A stretch of 36,096 bases of DNA from Microcaldota archaeon (GTDB lineage Archaea; Micrarchaeota; Micrarchaeia; Anstonellales; Anstonellaceae). A program made the translations under genes and the position numbers. The stretch covers positions 76,273-112,368 of the forward strand of contig JAOAJY010000002.1 of NCBI GenBank assembly GCA_026413965.1, in the 5' to 3' direction. Numbering within the stretch: position 1 is the stretch's first letter; every line of letters begins with the position of its first letter. A model generated the notes under the pieces. The model made no database searches and was not told where the DNA came from. It saw only the letters and a program-made list of their open reading frames with translations. Below are positions 5,967 through 33,515 of this stretch, in pieces.

Positions 5967-7715
5967 TTGAAATGGGCTAAGACCAGTCTTGCAATAATAT
6001 TCCTTATTCTTTTCATTCCTATCCTGGCTTTCACCTATCTTGATTTGTGGGGAGAGGCGCTTTCAAATCCAGACACTCCCAATCTGCCTTACATGGCGTT
6101 CCGCTCCCTCCTGCGCATGCTGGCCGCTTATTTTCTTGTGGTCGTGTTCGGCTTGACATACGGAATAATAGCCGGGCTTTACAGAAGCGCAAGGATGCTC
6201 ATGCTCCCTCTTCTTGACATAATGCAATCCATCCCTGTGCTTGGCTATCTTCCGCCAGCCATACTTCTTTTCTCCAACTCCCTTCCAGGCGAGCTTGGGT
6301 ATGAGATAGCCTCAATCTTCTTGATATTCTCGGGCATGGCGTGGGCAGTCACCTTTTCGGTCCTTGGCGCAGTGCGAAGCATCCCAAACGACATCCGGGA
6401 GGCTTCAAATGCTTTCGGGCTGCATGGGTGGAAATACGTTCGGCATGTGGTCTTCCCAGCCATTTTCCCTGCCTTCATGACAGGCTCCATTCTTGCCTGG
6501 GGAGGCGGCTGGTATTTCCTGGTGGCTGCTGAAATGCTCTCATACGGAGGCTCCACTTATGCTCTTCCAGGCATAGGCTCCTTTCTTGGCTCAGCAGTCT
6601 TCACCCAAGGCAACATGCCCTCTGCGATATTGGGGCTGGCTGTTTTTGTGGCAATCGTGTTCGCAATAAACGCATTTGTCTGGAAGCCGCTTTCAGAGTA
6701 CTCAAAGTACTTCAACCTGCAGACCATGCTTTCCGAGGGAACCCAGCCTCCAGTGCATTCCGAATTCGGGCCAGTGAGGCATTTGATTTATTTTTTCGAG
6801 AGCCTCAACAAAAGATACGGAGACGCCCTGGACTCTTTGGCTGAAAAAGCCTCGCGGACTTATGGCAGGGTTTTCAGGTTCCTTGAGCATGTCCCGAAAA
6901 AAAGGCGCAGGACTTCCCACAGCATCCTGACTTTTCTCATCTATGTTTTCCTCTTCGCTTCAGTCATGTCGGTGTTCGCTTTTTTTGTGGCATATGCCCT
7001 TTCTGTCCTGCCTTTGGAGGATTTGTCGCGCGTTTTGGCGACCAGGCAGGAGATAATGCAGCTGCCCATTTTGGGCATCTATTCCATGGCGCGCATATTG
7101 GCTGCTTACTTGATTGCGCTTTCTTGGACTCTTGTGGCAGGAATCCTGGTGGCTCGCTCGGAGCGGCTATACAGCATCTTCATGCCCATATTTGACATAG
7201 GCCAATCCACTCCTGCTTTGGCCCTATTCCCATTCATTGTCGCCCTTGTGATTGCCTCGCTTGGAGGAAGCGAGCTTTCAGTGAATATTGCGGCGATACT
7301 TCTTCTTCTGACAGGCTCGCAGTGGTATCTGCTTTTCAATATAGTGGGCGCAGTGCGAAGCATTCCAGGAAACATATTGGAGGCAAGCAGAGCGTTTGAC
7401 CTGAAAGGATGGAATTTCTACTCTTCAATAGTTCTTCCTGCCATAATACCTGGCATTCTGCTTGGCAGCATCCAGGCTTGGGGAGGAGCTTGGAACGCGC
7501 TTATAGTGAGCGAATATATAAATTACGCTGGGCAGACATATTCCGTTCCGGGTCTGGGTTCTTTTCTCACCAAAGCCACAACAGACCCCAATCCCGAGCC
7601 CTGGCTAATAACCCTCACGGTCGCAACCATGAGCGCATTGGTTTTGCTTATGAATTATCTTGTCTGGAGGCCCCTGTTCAATTATGCGGAGAGGTTCAGG
7701 TTTGAGAATGTCTAA
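5967..7715 (+). CDS. ABC anion transporter, duplicated (fused) permease subunit, TauC/SsuC/NrtB type
   Basis: A 582-residue permease made of two homologous halves, each a BPD_transp_1 domain. Each half has its own EAA loop that docks on the ATPase: IREASNAFGLHGWKYVRHVV near residues 140-160 and ILEASRAFDLKGWNFYSSIV in the second half. Both halves also share a GAVRSIP motif before the loop and a WGG(G/A)W motif after it. This is the architecture known as the duplicated permease of ABC-type anion transport systems (nitrate/sulfonate/taurine superfamily). The start is a TTG at 5967 with GGTGGGATTT before it; the ATG at 5972 is out of frame. The ATPase gene follows 9 bases later. The substrate cannot be inferred, and no binding protein gene is present nearby. 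Confidence 0.92.
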   Translation: MKWAKTSLAIIFLILFIPILAFTYLDLWGEALSNPDTPNLPYMAFRSLLRMLAAYFLVVVFGLTYGIIAGLYRSARMLMLPLLDIMQSIPVLGYLPPAILLFSNSLPGELGYEIASIFLIFSGMAWAVTFSVLGAVRSIPNDIREASNAFGLHGWKYVRHVVFPAIFPAFMTGSILAWGGGWYFLVAAEMLSYGGSTYALPGIGSFLGSAVFTQGNMPSAILGLAVFVAIVFAINAFVWKPLSEYSKYFNLQTMLSEGTQPPVHSEFGPVRHLIYFFESLNKRYGDALDSLAEKASRTYGRVFRFLEHVPKKRRRTSHSILTFLIYVFLFASVMSVFAFFVAYALSVLPLEDLSRVLATRQEIMQLPILGIYSMARILAAYLIALSWTLVAGILVARSERLYSIFMPIFDIGQSTPALALFPFIVALVIASLGGSELSVNIAAILLLLTGSQWYLLFNIVGAVRSIPGNILEASRAFDLKGWNFYSSIVLPAIIPGILLGSIQAWGGAWNALIVSEYINYAGQTYSVPGLGSFLTKATTDPNPEPWLITLTVATMSALVLLMNYLVWRPLFNYAERFRFENV

Positions 7716-20169: not shown

Positions 20170-20241
20170 GCCTCCGTAGCTCAGTGGCAGAGCGCGTGCA
20201 TGGTAAGCACGAGGTCGCGAGTTCAATCCTCGCCGGAGGCT
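20170..20241 (+). tRNA. trnT: tRNA-Thr (anticodon GGT)
   Basis: A complete 72-base cloverleaf. The acceptor stem GCCTCCG/CGGAGGC is perfect, with U73 as discriminator, usual for archaeal tRNA-Thr. The D arm is GCTC/GAGC, the anticodon stem CGTGC/GCACG encloses ATGGTAA (anticodon GGT, reading ACC and ACT), the variable loop is AGGTC and the T arm is GCGAG/CTCGC around TTCAATC. No intron, and CCA is not encoded. TTTTT follows directly and can terminate it. A possible TATA element (TTGTTTTAAAAG) lies inside the end of purA near 20111. Confidence 0.97.
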
Positions 20242-20277
20242 TTTTGAACAACTTTGTATAGCTGCGCAAAGATGGGG

Positions 20278-20350
20278 GCTGCTCAACGATATATAAAGAA
20301 CTTTGAGCAGCTTTTTAGCGAAGTATATTGTTGCGCGCCTAGCTGCTCAA
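20278..20350 (+). repeat. Three-arm inverted repeat with two mutually exclusive hairpins
   Basis: Arm A GCTGCTCAA (20278-20286) pairs with arm B TTGAGCAGC (20303-20311) over 9 bp, and TTTTT follows at once, as in a terminator. Arm B extended (TTGAGCAGCT, 20303-20312) is also perfectly complementary to arm C AGCTGCTCAA (20341-20350) over 10 bp. A:B and B:C cannot form together. The A:B loop contains a TATA-like GATATATAAAG. Shorter copies of the same word recur at 20466-20473 and 20511-20518. Function unknown. Confidence 0.65.
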
Positions 20351-20494
20351 TAGCAAAAGGCATGCCTTCTCATGCTCCATGTGGAATGAGGCTCCTCCAT
20401 ACGCTTGGCGCAAAATCCAAGCCATAGAGGACGGAAACATGCCCTGCTGCCAATAGCAATCAGGATGAGCAGCATTTCGTGCAGGCGCATGCGA
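20351..20494. other. Noncoding stretch between tRNA-Thr and the hyp operon
   Basis: No gene of supportable length or codon pattern is seen on either strand here. A 46-codon minus-strand frame beginning MRLHEML exists but has no conserved features. It may hold the 3' end of the hyp mRNA or a small RNA started from the TATA-like sequence at 20288-20298. Confidence 0.4.
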
Positions 20495-21556
20495 TTAGCA
20501 TATTCTCGGGAGCTGCTCGCCGCTGGGCATATCTATGATGCGGCTTGTTCCGACAGCGCTCTTCAGAGTCACAAGGCCAGCTGAGCCTTCGGCAACTTTT
20601 CCGATTTTGCTTGCGCTGCGCCCAAGAGGGTGCGCCCTCATTATGTCAAGAGCCTTTGCCGAATCCTTTTCCGGAACAAATGCTATGAACCGGCCTTCGT
20701 TTGCAACATATATGGCGTCCAGCCCTAGCATTTCGCATGCGCCGCGCACCTCCTCAGCTACTGGGATTGAGGCTTCCTCGATTTTGATGCCTCTTTTTGC
20801 GGTTTCGGCAATTTCGACCAGCGCGCACCCAAGCCCGCCGCGCGTAAGGTCGCGCATGCAATGGATCTCAACTCCAGCTTCAAGAAGCTCCCCAACCAAG
20901 CCCGCCACGCACGCGCAGTCGCTTTCTATGGTGCTTTCAAATTGGAGCCCCTCACGCACAGCCATTATTGCCGTTCCGTGCCTTCCAATGTCTCCGCTGA
21001 GCAGTATTGCATCGCCAGGCTGTATGCTTGCAGGCTCTATGCTAAGGGCGTGTTCGATGACTCCGATTCCAGCAGTATTGACAAACATGCCGTCCCCTTT
21101 GCCCTTGTCCACAACTTTTGTGTCGCCAGTCACTATGCTTACTCCAGCTGCAGATGCGGCTTCCTGCATAGAGCTGACCACTTTTGAGAGGGTTTCGATA
21201 GGCAGCCCTTCTTCGAGGATGAACGCTGCGCTGATGTAGAGAGGCTTTGCTCCGCACATGGCAAGGTCGTTTGCGGTGCCATTTACTGCAAGCTTGCCGA
21301 TGTCTCCGCCTGGAAAAAACAGCGGCCTCACCACGTATGAGTCAGTGGTGAAGGCCAGCAGCCTGCCTCCAGCCTCAACCACAGCGCCGTCGTGCCTTGC
21401 CCCCAGCTGGCGGCTGCCGAAGACTGGCAGGAAAAGTTTCTCGACAAGGCTGCTCATCAGCCTGCCGCCGCCTCCGTGCGCCAAAAGGATGTGCTCCCTG
21501 CCAGCTGAAGGAGCCGGGCAGGCAGAAGGGAATCCCTTTCTTTCTTCCTCCATCAT
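20495..21556 (-). CDS. hypE: Hydrogenase maturation protein HypE (carbamoyl dehydratase)
   Basis: An AIR synthase-related enzyme that dehydrates the S-carbamoyl group on its own C-terminal Cys to a thiocyanate, the source of the CN ligands of [NiFe]-hydrogenase. The N-terminal HGGGGRLM, the metal/ATP-binding segments [20 protein letters not shown] and [12 protein letters not shown], and the decisive C-terminal PRIC ending are present. The frame is open from 21574 inside hypD; the tandem ATGs at 21556 and 21553 have GAGGGTGA in front, which I take as the start (353 residues). It is the last gene of the hypF-C-D-E operon. Confidence 0.96.
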
Positions 21557-21557
21557 T

Positions 21558-22688
21558 TCACCCTCTTTTCCCATCCAAGCTTTCGGCTGCTTCTGCCTTT
21601 TGCTTCATGAAGCGGTAGCGGAAGTAGGCCGCGCACGCACCCTCAGATGAGACCATGGTCGCTCCAAGAGGGGTTTCGGGCGTGCAGCGCTTGCCGAACT
21701 GCGGGCATTCGAAGGGCTTTCTTATGCCCTGCAGCACCAGCCCGCTTATGCACTCTGGATGCTCCTCGGCGGACTTGGAGGCAAGCCCGAAGCGCTTTTC
21801 CGCGTCGTAAGCAGAATATTCCTCTGCCAGCCCCAGCCCGCTGGCAGGTATGCTGCCCACGCCACGCCATTTGCGGTGCACGATGCAAAACACCCTGCGC
21901 ATCAGCTCTTGCGCATGCCTGTTGCCGCCCCTGCGCACTGCGCGGGCATACTGGTTTTCAACTTCTGCCCTGCCTTCCTCAAGCTGCTTGACGCACATGT
22001 AAATGCCTTCCAATATGTCAAGAGGCTCAAATCCAGTCACCACTATGGGCACCTTGTGCTTTTGCGCTATAGGCTCGTATTCCGCATAGCCCATCACCGC
22101 GCATACGTGGCCTGCCGCAAGGAATCCCTGCACCCTGCTGTTTGGCGAGGAGAGGATGGCTTCCATTGCTGGGGGAACAAGCGCGTGGGAAACAAGGAGG
22201 GAAAAATTCTTGAGCCCCTCCTGGCTTGCCTGGAAAACTGCCGCGGCATTCGCAGGCGCCGTGGTCTCAAAGCCAACTGCGAAGAAAACGACTTCTTTGC
22301 CTGGGTTTTCCTTTGCTATCTTCACCGCATCAAGAGGAGAATATACTATCCGCACGTCGCCGCCTTTCGCTTTCACTGAAAACAGGTCCTGGCTTGTGCC
22401 TGGCACGCGCAGCATGTCGCCAAACGAGCAGAAGATGACATTTTGGCGAGAGGCTATTTCTATCGCCTTGTCAATCGTCTCTAGTGGCGTGACGCAGACA
22501 GGGCAGCCTGGGCCATGTATAAGATTTATGTGGTGCGGGAGCAGCTGGTCTATGCCGAATTTGACGATTGAATGCGTCTGGCCACCGCACACCTCCATGA
22601 TGCTCCATTGCCTTGAGGTGATGCGCCTGATTTCGCCTGCCAGCCTCCGCGCTGCCTCTCCATCGCGGTATTCATCAATGAACTTCAT
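21558..22688 (-). CDS. hypD: Hydrogenase maturation protein HypD
   Basis: A 376-residue iron-sulfur protein that, with HypC, forms the scaffold on which Fe(CN)2CO is assembled. Key elements: VCGGQTH (Cys34), [10 protein letters not shown] (Cys62, Cys65), [11 protein letters not shown] and the C-terminal Cys cluster region with CPQFGKRC and [10 protein letters not shown]. All conserved Cys appear intact. Its ATG overlaps the hypC stop by 4 bases (ATGA), and its stop is one base before the hypE start, indicating coupled translation. Confidence 0.97.
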
Positions 22689-22939
22689 CCATTCGCCTCC
22701 TCAAGCTCGCGGAGCTCGTCCATGCGCTTCAGGTGCGCAAAGACCTTTCTAGCCTCTTCTTCATCTATGGTGCTGATTGCGAATCCCACATGCACCAGAA
22801 CATAATCGCCGACCTTTGCTTCAGGGCAGCATAGAAGGCTCACCTCCTTTATTATGCCCCCGAAGCTGACCTTTCCAGTCCGATTCTTCGAATTGCCTTC
22901 CGCGATGCTCAGGAGCTTCCCAGGTATTGCAAGGCACAT
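22685..22939 (-). CDS. hypC: Hydrogenase maturation chaperone HypC
   Basis: An 84-residue HypC/HupF-family chaperone. It must begin MCLAIPGKL, because Cys2 (exposed after Met removal) binds the iron centre; the in-frame ATG four codons earlier (22951) would bury it, and GGTGATGCG before the chosen ATG acts as ribosome-binding site. The family motif [12 protein letters not shown] is present. The C-terminal [20 protein letters not shown] helix is usual. It transfers the Fe(CN)2CO group from HypD to the hydrogenase large subunit precursor, none of which is encoded nearby. Confidence 0.96.
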
Positions 22940-22943
22940 CGCA

Positions 22944-25217
22944 TCACCCATCAGCCATATGTGAAGCAGCCACCAGTTGCCCGAGCGCTATTCCTCCATC
23001 GTTCGGAGGAACGCGCTGGTGCCAATATGGCCTGAAGCCATTCTCAGCAAGGAGCTTTATAGTCCTCTCGGTCAAGTATTTGTTCTGGAAGCAGCCGCCG
23101 CTCAAGACCACTTTCTCCTCAGCCGCCTGCCGAGCAATCTCGACTATTGCCTCAGCAAGCGTGTTATGGAATTTTGCCGATATGTCGCCTACAGGCGCGC
23201 CGTGAGCCGCTTCGCTGATTATTTGGCGGACCATAGGCTCCCAGTCCACAAGCAGCGCGGATTGGCTGCCTCCATTGCTCTTTTGTTTGATGGCGAAGGC
23301 ATAATGGGCATCAGTCTCAATTCCGTCCAGCGCAAACTCGAGCTCCATCGCAGCCTGGCCCTCAAAAGCCGCCTGCTGACGCATCCCGGTTATTGATGAA
23401 ACCGCATCAAACAGCCTGCCTGCGCTTGAGGTTAAGGGAGAGTTTATCCTCTTCCCAAGCATAGCCTTCAGAATCCTGCATTCAGCAGCAGTGAAGGACC
23501 GCACAGGCGCAAGCGAGCCGTTCTCAAACAATCTTTCGCCAAAAATCCCGTGCAGCAAGCCAATGGCTGAGCGCCTAGGCTCCATCACGGCTTTCTCTCC
23601 TCCTGGAAGAGCGAAGGTGCGCAGATGCCCTATGCGCTGGAAAGACGAGGCTGTCGCAAGCAGGAACTCGCCGCCCCATATGCTGCGGTCCGGGCCCAAG
23701 CCTGTGCCGTCCCAGGAAACGCCCAGGACCTGCCCGTCAAGCTCATTTTCAGCCATGCATGAAACGACATGCGCAAAATGGTGCTGCACTTTTGTTATGC
23801 CCAGCTGCGATTTCTCCGCAAACTGCGTTGGCAAGTAATCTGGATGGAGGTCGCACGCAATGGAAGAGGGCTGGATTGCGTATAGCCTTCTGAAATCATC
23901 CTGGGCCTTCTTGAATGCGCAAAATGCCTGTTCGTTCTCCAAATCTCCTATGTGCTGGCTGATAAACGCATAGCTGCCTGCAGAAACTGCGATTGTGTTT
24001 TTCAGGTGCGCGCCTACTGCGAGCATGGCAGGCATTTCCCTCTTAAGGGTGATGGGCAGCGGCGCATAGCCTCTGGCGCGCCGCAGCACAAGGCAGCGCC
24101 CGGCCATCATGCGCACCAACGAGTCATCCACGTGGCGCGCAATAGGGCGGTTGTGCACTAGAAACAAGTCGGCGATCGAGCCAAGCCGTTTGAGCGCCTC
24201 CCGCTCGTCCGTGCATATTGTTTCGCCAGAGATGTTGCCGCTTGTCGCCACCACGGGAAAGCCAAGCTCCGCCATGAGCAAATGGTGCAGGGGGGAATAG
24301 GGGAGCATGGCGCCAAAGCAAGGGTTGCCAGGCGCAACTGCGCCGGCAATCCCTCCGCTTTCCTTCCTGCGCTTGAGCAACACTATGGGCGATTCTGGCG
24401 ATAGCAGCAGCCGCTCCTCTAACGCGGAGATATGGCAGTGCTCTGCCGCAGCTTCAAGCGATGGGAACATGAGCGCAAACGGCTTTTGCTCGCGCCGCTT
24501 GCGAGCCCGCAGACGCGCCACGGCATCCTCGCTGCGCGCGTCAGCTATCAGATGGAATCCTCCAATGCCCTTCAAGGCTAGCACCTTTCCTTCGCGGACT
24601 GCTGCCGCAGCTTGGCGGAGGGCATCGTCGCCCTCGCTGCGGATTTTTCCGCTTCCGCTCCACAGCTCAAGCCTTGGGCCGCACTTGGGGCAAGCATTCG
24701 GCTGCGCATGGAAGCGCCTGTCAAGAGGATTCTCGTATTCTTCCCTGCACTGGCCGCACATCTCAAATCCCTTCATGGTGGTGTTTTGGCGGTCATAGGG
24801 AAGCGCCTCTATGATGGAAAATCTCGGGCCGCAGTTGGTGCAGTTGGTGAATGGGTAGCGGTAGCGTCGGTTGGAGGCATCAAAAATCTCGCGCAGGCAA
24901 TCGCCGCATGTCGCTATGTCGGGCATGATGAAGGCAGTTTTTGCGCCGCTCCCGCTGCTTTTTCTTATCTCAAAATCCTTGTAGCCGGCAGGGTCAAGGA
25001 ATGAGTGCTCGAGGCTGTGTATGGATGCGCGCGGCGGCTTTTCAGTTTGCATGCGCAAAAGGAAAATATCAAGCTGCCGCCGCCCTCCCTCTACCTCGCA
25101 AAACACGCCTTGCGGGGAATTGATGACCCAGCCTTTGAGCTCCAGCTCTGAGGCAAGCCTGAATATAAATGGCCTGAAGCCTACGCCCTGCACTGCCCCG
25201 CGCACGGCGAGCCGCAA
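22944..25217 (-). CDS. hypF: Carbamoyltransferase HypF
   Basis: A 757-residue enzyme that uses carbamoyl phosphate and ATP to carbamoylate the HypE C-terminal Cys. Domains in order: acylphosphatase (VRGAVQGVGFRPF at the start), two Cys4 zinc fingers (Cys104/107/126/129 and Cys154/157/176/179), a YrdC-like domain (from about 190), and a Kae1/TobZ-like domain with the metal-binding HHFAHVVSCM and the DGTGLGPD and SGGCFQN motifs. The frame reaches a TTG at 25253, but the TTG at 25217 has GGGAGGA 9 bases before it and begins with the usual family N-terminus (MRLAVRG), so I prefer that. Full length and apparently intact. First gene of the operon. Confidence 0.95.
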   Translation of the reverse strand: MRLAVRGAVQGVGFRPFIFRLASELELKGWVINSPQGVFCEVEGGRRQLDIFLLRMQTEKPPRASIHSLEHSFLDPAGYKDFEIRKSSGSGAKTAFIMPDIATCGDCLREIFDASNRRYRYPFTNCTNCGPRFSIIEALPYDRQNTTMKGFEMCGQCREEYENPLDRRFHAQPNACPKCGPRLELWSGSGKIRSEGDDALRQAAAAVREGKVLALKGIGGFHLIADARSEDAVARLRARKRREQKPFALMFPSLEAAAEHCHISALEERLLLSPESPIVLLKRRKESGGIAGAVAPGNPCFGAMLPYSPLHHLLMAELGFPVVATSGNISGETICTDEREALKRLGSIADLFLVHNRPIARHVDDSLVRMMAGRCLVLRRARGYAPLPITLKREMPAMLAVGAHLKNTIAVSAGSYAFISQHIGDLENEQAFCAFKKAQDDFRRLYAIQPSSIACDLHPDYLPTQFAEKSQLGITKVQHHFAHVVSCMAENELDGQVLGVSWDGTGLGPDRSIWGGEFLLATASSFQRIGHLRTFALPGGEKAVMEPRRSAIGLLHGIFGERLFENGSLAPVRSFTAAECRILKAMLGKRINSPLTSSAGRLFDAVSSITGMRQQAAFEGQAAMELEFALDGIETDAHYAFAIKQKSNGGSQSALLVDWEPMVRQIISEAAHGAPVGDISAKFHNTLAEAIVEIARQAAEEKVVLSGGCFQNKYLTERTIKLLAENGFRPYWHQRVPPNDGGIALGQLVAASHMADG

Positions 25218-25282
25218 GCGGCAGATTCCTCCCTGTGAAGTGTCATGGCGCAATTTTTCCCCCGAAAATGTTTGGGCTCAAT

Positions 25283-27760: not shown

Positions 27761-28999
27761 TCATAGCGTCACAGTTTCTCCAAGCGCAGGGGCATATGCG
27801 TCAAACCCCTCAACTTTCAGCTCCTCAGCAAACTGCTGGCATTTGTCGCCATGCACGCAGAAGACTTTCTGCGGGCGCATTCTCTCCACCAGCTCAAAAA
27901 GCTCCTTTCTGCCCGCATGAGCAGAAAAATCAAGGTAGGCATAAGAAGCCTTGGGCTTTATCTTCACCCCGTCATACTCCACATAGCCGTAATTGAGGAG
28001 GTTGTGCCCATTGGTCCCTTCAACGCAGTAGCCGGTGAAAATCGCCTTTGACTCATGCCCCATGCGGAGAAGGTAGTGCATCGCCGGGCCTCCTTGCAGC
28101 ATCCCTGCGGTCGCTATCACCACGCCTGGCTTTTTGAGCACCGCCTCCCTCATGCGCTTGTGGGTGACTGGCTTGCAGGTCTCCAAGTCATGCCTGAAGC
28201 GCTTGAAATCCTTCATGTAATTTGAGAAGCGCGAGAGAATCTCATTCACCTCCAAGCCCATCCCCTCTATCCATATGTCGCAGTCCTTGTCAAGCGAGCG
28301 TATTATCCTTATCAGCTCCTGGGTCCTGCCTATCGCGAAGGCTGGGAACAGGACTGTCCCGCCATTCTCAAATGTCTCCTCAATCTGCCTTCCAAGCTCA
28401 ATCTCAAGCTCCTTTCTTGGCGGATGGTCCCTGTCTGCATAGGTGCTCTCGATTATGAGCGCCTCCGGCTCCTTGGGCGGAAGCTCTGAGGCAAAAGTGG
28501 TCTTTGTCTCTTCGCCTTTGAAGTCCCCTGTGTAAACCACACGCCCTTCGCCTGTCTGCAAATCCACCATGGCTGCCCCCGGTATGTGGCCTGCCTGGTA
28601 AAAAGCCAAGGAAGATCCGCCAAGCTCGTGCTGTTTTTTGTATGAAAGAAGAGTGGCGCTCTCCTTCATCTTCTTTATGTGGGCAGGGTGGTAAGGGTAT
28701 TCGCCTCTTTTTGCCATGATTCTCAAGGAGTCCGCAGTTATCAGCTCTGACATGGCAAGCGTGGGCGGCGTGCAGACCATCTCTGGCCGGGCGTTTTTGA
28801 AAAGAAAGGGCGCGAAACCCGAGTGGTCAAGGTGAGCATGCGACAAGACCACATAATCCGGGCTTTGCTTTGGCTCAAGAGGGTAAGCCTGGGAGTCGTG
28901 TATCTTCAAGCCGCAGTCAAGCATTATCCTTTCTTCTGCCTCAACCATTATCGCGCTTCTTCCAACCTCTTGCGCAGCCCCAAAAAATCCCAATTGCAT
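27761..28999 (-). CDS. Beta-CASP metallo-beta-lactamase ribonuclease (aCPSF2-like, without KH domains)
   Basis: A 412-residue MBL/beta-CASP nuclease. The metallo-beta-lactamase motifs SHAHLDHSG (residues 53-61), AGHIPGAA and YTGDFKG are present, and then the beta-CASP motif ESTYADRDHPP, the RTQELIRII helix, DFSAHAG (motif B) and VHGD (motif C). There are no N-terminal KH domains, which separates it from aCPSF1 and fits aCPSF2 or a similar archaeal RNase. These enzymes mature or degrade RNA ends, endo- or 5' to 3' exonucleolytically. It ends 13 bases from the convergent coiled-coil gene. The ATG at 28999 is preceded by a TATA box at about 29020-29030, so a leaderless mRNA is expected. Confidence 0.93.
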   Translation of the reverse strand: MQLGFFGAAQEVGRSAIMVEAEERIMLDCGLKIHDSQAYPLEPKQSPDYVVLSHAHLDHSGFAPFLFKNARPEMVCTPPTLAMSELITADSLRIMAKRGEYPYHPAHIKKMKESATLLSYKKQHELGGSSLAFYQAGHIPGAAMVDLQTGEGRVVYTGDFKGEETKTTFASELPPKEPEALIIESTYADRDHPPRKELEIELGRQIEETFENGGTVLFPAFAIGRTQELIRIIRSLDKDCDIWIEGMGLEVNEILSRFSNYMKDFKRFRHDLETCKPVTHKRMREAVLKKPGVVIATAGMLQGGPAMHYLLRMGHESKAIFTGYCVEGTNGHNLLNYGYVEYDGVKIKPKASYAYLDFSAHAGRKELFELVERMRPQKVFCVHGDKCQQFAEELKVEGFDAYAPALGETVTL

Positions 29000-33399: not shown

Positions 33400-33515
33400 T
33401 GGGCCGGAAGAGATTTGAACTCTTGACCTTTCGATTTCAAAGCCTGCCTGAAAGCCATGCGAGGCTTCCTGAGGCATATCAGTCGAACGCTCCAACCAGG
33501 CTAAGCTACCGGCCC
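33400..33515 (-). tRNA. trnI: tRNA-Ile (anticodon GAT) with a 41-base intron
   Basis: Read on the minus strand, the acceptor stem GGGCCGG/CCGGCCC, D stem GCTT/GAGC, anticodon stem TTCGA/TCGAA, variable loop AGGTC, T stem AAGAG/CTCTT and discriminator A73 are perfect. The anticodon loop reads C-T-G-A-T-A-(intron)-A, anticodon GAT. The intron occupies 33436-33476, inserted between positions 37 and 38, the canonical archaeal site, and folds into a TGCCT/AGGCA outer stem and a GGAAGCC/GGCTTTC inner stem. Mature length is 75 bases, and CCA is not encoded. The splicing endonuclease should remove it. Confidence 0.97.

Follow-up and report, generated by a model that had tools for sequence, protein, structure and literature searches.

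Introduction

Integrative elements that enter tRNA genes by means of tyrosine recombinases, among them the "cryptic integrated elements", have been described in archaea (PMC6563490; reviewed in PMC8371274). They carry a tyrosine integrase gene beside the tRNA gene, repeat the tRNA 3' end at their far end, bring varied cargo such as restriction-modification genes, and may occupy one locus in tandem. Operator-flanked promoters are known from archaeal viruses through F55 of SSV1, SvtR and AvtR (PMC5569661); short repeated words lie there at or beside the TATA box, the BRE or the start site, and control of TBP/TFB access has been proposed. Archaeal integrons (PMC9668308) consist of a tyrosine recombinase with a conserved non-coding site and varied cargo behind it. 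The dif/Xer site consists of 11-bp inverted repeats with a 6-bp spacer (PMC8371274).

The locus described here lies in a window of 36,096 nucleotides of archaeal DNA (the whole stretch that was analysed), where three short arms follow a tRNA-Thr gene. Judged by homology, architecture, context and the deletion recorded in its sequence, the feature descends from a repeated non-coding unit and survives as a truncated relic. It is probably the relic of a unit from a tRNA-targeted element, and the intact unit is a putative regulated promoter pair with operator arms. Both components, tRNA-gene integrative elements and operator-flanked promoters, are of known kinds. The elements found here share all of the above traits of the archaeal tRNA-targeted elements, but differ in what directly follows the integrase, namely tandem TATA units with paired arms and modules of repeated words. 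The F55 sites are tandem ATAGATAG repeats, whereas the TATA box of the present unit lies between inverted arms of 10 bp. A limited search of the open-access literature found no description of a paired-arm unit behind an integrase in Micrarchaeota. If the interpretation holds, an apparent RNA switch turns out to be a scar by which gene transfer can be recognised in an archaeal phylum that is poorly understood.

Three arms behind tRNA-Thr

The features of the window are as follows.

20170-20241, + strand: tRNA-Thr(GGT), a host gene; the same tRNA locus holds an integrase element in G002
20257-20269, + strand: what remains of a GCG-type unit's end (TATAGCTGCGCAA), with GCG arm AGCTGCGCAA at 20260-20269, from alignments to L069 and L074
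20277-20286, + strand: arm A (GGCTGCTCAA; family consensus AGCTGC[T/G]CAA), paired part 20278-20286
20290-20297, + strand: TATA box TATATAAA between arms A and B; TATATAA, TTTATAA or TTTAAA kept in relatives
20298-20312, + strand: 15-bp GAACTTTGAGCAGCT, common to the B and B' contexts; probable deletion junction
20303-20312, + strand: arm B (TTGAGCAGCT), in which B and B' of the intact unit are fused
20312-20316, + strand: T-run TTTTT
20323-20328, + strand: second TATA-like box GTATAT, between B' and C
20341-20350, + strand: arm C (AGCTGCTCAA)
20495-25253, - strand: hypE, hypD and hypF, an acquired block and probable cargo
27761-28999, - strand: beta-CASP nuclease gene, ancestral neighbour of tRNA-Thr in G004, G006, G007 and G009

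The first-pass annotation had described arm B as able to pair either with A over 9 bp, followed by five T, or with C over 10 bp, and had noted a TATA-like sequence in the A:B loop. These observations hold: A (20278-20286) pairs with B (20303-20311) around a 16-nt loop that contains TATATAAA, directly before the T-run, and B (20303-20312) pairs perfectly with C (20341-20350). The folding energies are -12.9 kcal/mol for A:B alone (z -3.8) and -19.6 kcal/mol for B:C (z -2.9). Perfect 9-bp inverted repeats are not rare in the window (11, versus a mean of 7.7 in shuffled sequence). An arm with perfect pairing on both sides occurs once, and was seen in none of 200 Markov-shuffled windows and in none of 2000 shuffles of the intergenic stretch. 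The A-N-B palindrome has a single occurrence in the whole 771-kb genome bin. Further partial copies had been proposed at 20466 and at 20511, the latter inside the end of hypE. These look like chance, since they give no match to the covariance model of the unit and arm-like 10-mers with at most one mismatch are frequent (198 in the 771-kb genome).

The intact unit in related Micrarchaeota

A longer unit with the same arms, about 120-130 bp in length, occurs singly or in tandem in other Micrarchaeota. Its order is A, TATA box, B, a 45-bp core, B', TATA-like box and C. Arm A (AGCTGCTCAA) is followed by 16 bp with TATATAA, by B (TTGAGCAGCT) and by a core of the form CAAACG...CCAAACGTTG; the 3' half consists of B' (TTGAGCAGCT), 28-38 bp with GTATAT, and C (AGCTGCTCAA), so that B' and C vary in spacing (about 38 or 48 bp from start to start). 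The arms exist in two matched versions, GAG and GCG, the second carrying GCG in all four arms, and a GCG unit followed by a GAG unit is a frequent order. A covariance-model search of 295 genomes of the phylum found 18 full units, spread over six relatives from the same family, and weaker units in G141 (three) and G165 (one). An exact-pattern scan of genome contigs gave 56 stretches, with the full unit only in archaeal (Micrarchaeota) records; the remaining stretches are taken as chance palindromes. The same scan of viral sequences gave two stretches.

Non-conservation of the arms in close relatives had been named in advance as grounds for dropping the feature; in the units of relatives the arms are nearly invariant apart from one switching position. 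In an alignment of 16 units there is little variation at nine of the ten arm positions; the A:B pairing holds in 98% of cells and the B':C pairing in 90%, and a TATA-type box stands at fixed spacing in every unit. At the single arm position that switches (T-A/G-C), the partner switches too, within A:B as well as within B':C. Pairing of B with C is kept about equally well (89%), as expected given that all arms carry one word. A hybrid unit in G016, with GCG in A:B and GAG in B':C, has adjacent arms that match and distant arms (B and C) that differ. Symmetric recognition by a dimeric protein predicts conservation of the arms as well as RNA pairing does, and covariation alone does not separate the two.

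RNAalifold recovered the two arm helices only, with no convincing conserved fold in the core; in 80% of cells the bases of a core helix can pair, barely more than in shuffles, and the core folded by itself does not surpass shuffled sequence (z 0.5 and -1.1). An inverted TATA segment between A and B was rejected, as its orientation is the same in all inspected copies. A coding core was rejected by eye, as reading frames break between units.

Origin of the shortened copy

The window copy scores 32.4 bits (E 8e-8) against the covariance model. Positions 20257-20354 match the units of relatives: 20298-20351 corresponds to the part from B' to C at 87% (E 7e-13), and local alignments of 20257-20312 and 20264-20312 to L069 and L074, at 81-86%, cover the linker, A and B of GAG units. 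The GCG arm remnant stands 17 bp before arm A, as in L074. When the window copy is aligned with intact units, a net gap of about 54 bp results; the part that is probably missing, the core and one arm, amounts to 55 bp. Given that GAACTTTGAGCAGCT is found in both the B and the B' contexts, a simple deletion between direct repeats explains the window copy. The relic has A, the TATA box, B and C nearly perfect despite the loss of the core.

This deletion bears directly on the proposal that the arms act as a riboswitch, attenuator or terminator on the tRNA-Thr transcript. The proposal drew on the A:B hairpin followed by five T and on the ability of B to pair with either A or C. As a result of the deletion, a single B faces both A and C, and A:B now precedes a T-run that belongs to B'. 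The three-arm competition is therefore a product of the loss of 55 bp, as the 16 intact units pair A with B and B' with C. Compensatory changes linking all three arms had been suggested as a sign of alternating structures; instead A:B and B':C covary separately, and the mutually exclusive pairings are not conserved in relatives. In none of the intact units does a T-run follow B, where a CAAACG-like sequence stands, and about six of the 16 lack a T-run after B', such that a conserved stem with T-run, as expected of an intrinsic terminator, is not found. With the T-run placed after B' rather than B and the two pairings separate, both the attenuator and the terminator readings fall. Moreover, the arrangement is missing after tRNA-Thr in G004, G006, G007 and G009, and a T-run already lies directly 3' of the tRNA (20242-20246). 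Downstream of the arms there is no gene on the same strand, hypE being convergent (20495-21574, - strand), and an Rfam gathering scan of the window returned two tRNAs only, with no riboswitch or leader. The comparative data largely refute a regulatory RNA acting on the tRNA-Thr transcript, which we consider scarcely credible.

Integrase elements that carry the units

In relatives the units are associated with integrase genes. At ten integrase genes the first unit arm starts 4-190 bp past the stop codon. The integrases are XerA-like tyrosine recombinases with a C-terminal zinc ribbon (Pfam/NCBIfam/PDB); the closest integrases of named viruses are those of Geoglobus acetivorans pleomorphic virus 1 (38% identity) and ThalV2 (37%), over 86-88%, and the likeness to these two is known for the integrase alone. 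Unlike the window, relatives have integrase genes directly at tRNA genes.

L069 and L070: integrase directly behind tRNA-Thr(TGT)
L072: integrase directly behind tRNA-Thr(GGT) with intron
L202: integrase directly behind tRNA-Val
L196 and L197: integrase directly behind tRNA-Leu, with no recognised unit

A copy of the tRNA-Thr 3' end stands at the right end of three elements (L070-L072), giving them attL and attR derived from the tRNA 3' end. Cargo varies and includes an Eco57I-like enzyme, an FHA protein, a radical-SAM protein, and ankyrin and subtilase proteins. Units without an adjacent integrase occur at three loci (G012:C23, G012:C99 and G016:C10), as in the window. Conversely, other integrases of the family have no units, which indicates that the units are not essential for integration. 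The unit provides a searchable signature for mobile elements in Micrarchaeota.

The adjacency of integrase genes and units, the attI-like position of the units behind the integrase gene and the apparent deletion between B and B' would fit arms that serve as recombination sites of the integrase, either att/dif-like or as a cassette insertion site. However, the 10-16-10 arrangement of arms and spacer is unlike dif (11-6-11), and the elements end in tRNA 3' ends and different repeats (GGCTCAAGAAGCATC). In addition, both arm types are found behind integrases that are only 46% identical and have different tRNA targets. A role of the arms as recombination sites is very unlikely. The elements resemble archaeal integrons in their order of tyrosine recombinase, conserved non-coding site and varied cargo; membership was rejected, since the integrase reaches 58 bits at best against the cut-off of 265 for the integron integrase (IntI), and the element ends are not attC sites.

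Several observations concern insertion at tRNA genes more generally. The integrase family has 17 matches in G002, a single genome of 1.7 Mb. Att-like repeats with the tRNA-Leu 3' end CTCCCCCTGCA lie between gene blocks (L073:7209 and 10948; L074:2936, 8510 and 12936; L076:5832 and 7955), suggesting serial insertion at tRNA-Leu. At L075:2446-2560 (G016:C10) tRNA-Thr(GGT) is reduced to its 5' exon and part of its intron, and the 3' exon was not found in the 84%-complete G016 genome or in G014. This tRNA is possibly split or disrupted; a search of G016 for the other half of a split tRNA-Thr gave a single 3'-half-like match, which belongs to another tRNA with an intron.

Probable function of the unit

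The likeliest function of the intact unit is that of a promoter with operators. The unit has two TATA-like boxes, each between an inverted pair of 10-bp arms (A:B and B':C), and would work as a promoter pair in which a DNA-binding regulator occupies the arms as operator half-sites and thereby either blocks TBP/TFB or recruits them. This assignment follows from the conserved TATA box, the fixed spacing, the conservation of arm sequence and the recurrence of the arms at other promoters of the elements. The integrase promoters of L074 and L197 also have a TATA box with a TTTGAGCA- or TTCGAGCA-like arm, as do L070, L071 and L072 at their right ends, although the integrase promoters have B-like arms only, some of them poorly matched. 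The assignment also draws on the analogy with F55, SvtR and AvtR: as at the F55 and SvtR sites, repeated words overlap or flank the TATA box or start site. The alternative that the first-pass annotation had offered to the RNA switch, protein-binding half-sites around a promoter, is the better supported of its two suggestions, as TATA box and arms are conserved in position and recur elsewhere. Given that identical arms stand behind integrases of 46% identity with different tRNA targets, a shared regulator is likelier to bind them than the integrase itself. The intact units thus offer a testable putative promoter/operator system of such elements.

The established layout of archaeal promoters places A upstream of the transcript if the TATA box works, in which case A:B could not form in that RNA. 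The unit might instead encode a small structured RNA with stem B':C, transcribed from the promoter flanked by A:B, the window holding a crippled copy. Arms B' and C are predicted to pair in intact units, and the 3' parts of four of five units fold better than shuffles (z -2.4 to -3.8). However, the 45-nt core lacks a consistently conserved fold, and the arms conserve sequence and not pairing alone. A small RNA is accordingly quite unlikely.

The main rival to a promoter role is a role in replication or maintenance, in which the arms would be iterons for an initiator, the TATA-like stretches unwinding elements and the window copy a dead remnant. Behind the units lie non-coding modules with their own repeated words of 8-10 bp (TTTAAGCGCA, TTTACGCTCA, CTCGTGTAA, CTCGCGCAAA), some in pairs 11 bp apart, that resemble replication iterons. 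Against this, the arms do not lie in tandem like iterons but form inverted pairs, with fixed spacing around a TATA consensus, and no initiator gene was recognised in the examined elements, whose main genes are the integrase and varied cargo. A replication region is unlikely, if less so than a small RNA.

The modules lie at L070:6352-6850, L073:6204-6600, L074:6300-6930, L076:3880-4330 and L202 (- strand, about 6300-6745). Their words are TAGGCGCA/TTTAAGCGCA, TTTACGCTCA, TTACGCGCA, CTCGTGTAA and CTCGCGCAAA, in a combination that differs per element. A search of the window for the other modules (CTCGTGTAA, TTTAAGCGCA and so on) found none. It is conceivable, but doubtful, that the paired-arm unit is one of at least five word modules that make up a combinatorial control or replication region, which collects and expresses cargo at tRNA loci, including the hydrogenase-maturation genes of the window. 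Such a region, if real, has not been described before.

The tRNA-Thr locus and the hyp genes

In the favoured interpretation as a promoter pair of a tRNA-targeted element, the window copy would have arisen by loss of the integrase and by recombination between the B and B' repeats, which took out 55 bp so that three arms were left. The surroundings are consistent with an insertion. Four relatives (G004, G006, G007 and G009) have the order purA, tRNA-Thr, beta-CASP, which is the ancestral order. The distance from tRNA-Thr to beta-CASP is about 0.14 kb in G007 and 1.0-1.5 kb in G004, G006 and G009, versus 7.5 kb in the window, and relative to empty sites the tRNA-Thr locus of the window carries an insertion, as looked for in an integrative element. 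The 7.5-kb gap contains the relic, hypE, hypD, hypF and an ORF of 726 amino acids. HypD is found in the genome of the window and in none of the 83 others of the order (84 in all), and hypE only in the genome of the window among 20 of the family. The GC content of the hyp block is 57%, versus 51-52% around it. A homologue of the 726-aa ORF is present elsewhere in G006, and the ORF may lie outside the block.

The relic marks the edge of this acquired hydrogenase-maturation block. The same element probably brought hypE, hypD and hypF, although neither an integrase remnant nor a second tRNA-Thr 3' end (attR) was found in the window. The relic suggests how the hydrogenase-maturation block may have entered one lineage.

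In the relatives, the gap between tRNA-Thr and beta-CASP holds a different gene in each (L224:1743-3280, L226:1891-2964 and L227:197-1206), which makes the site look like an insertion hot spot. The other tRNA of the window, at 33400-33515 (- strand), has an apparent intron; it was found by Rfam and missed by ARAGORN.
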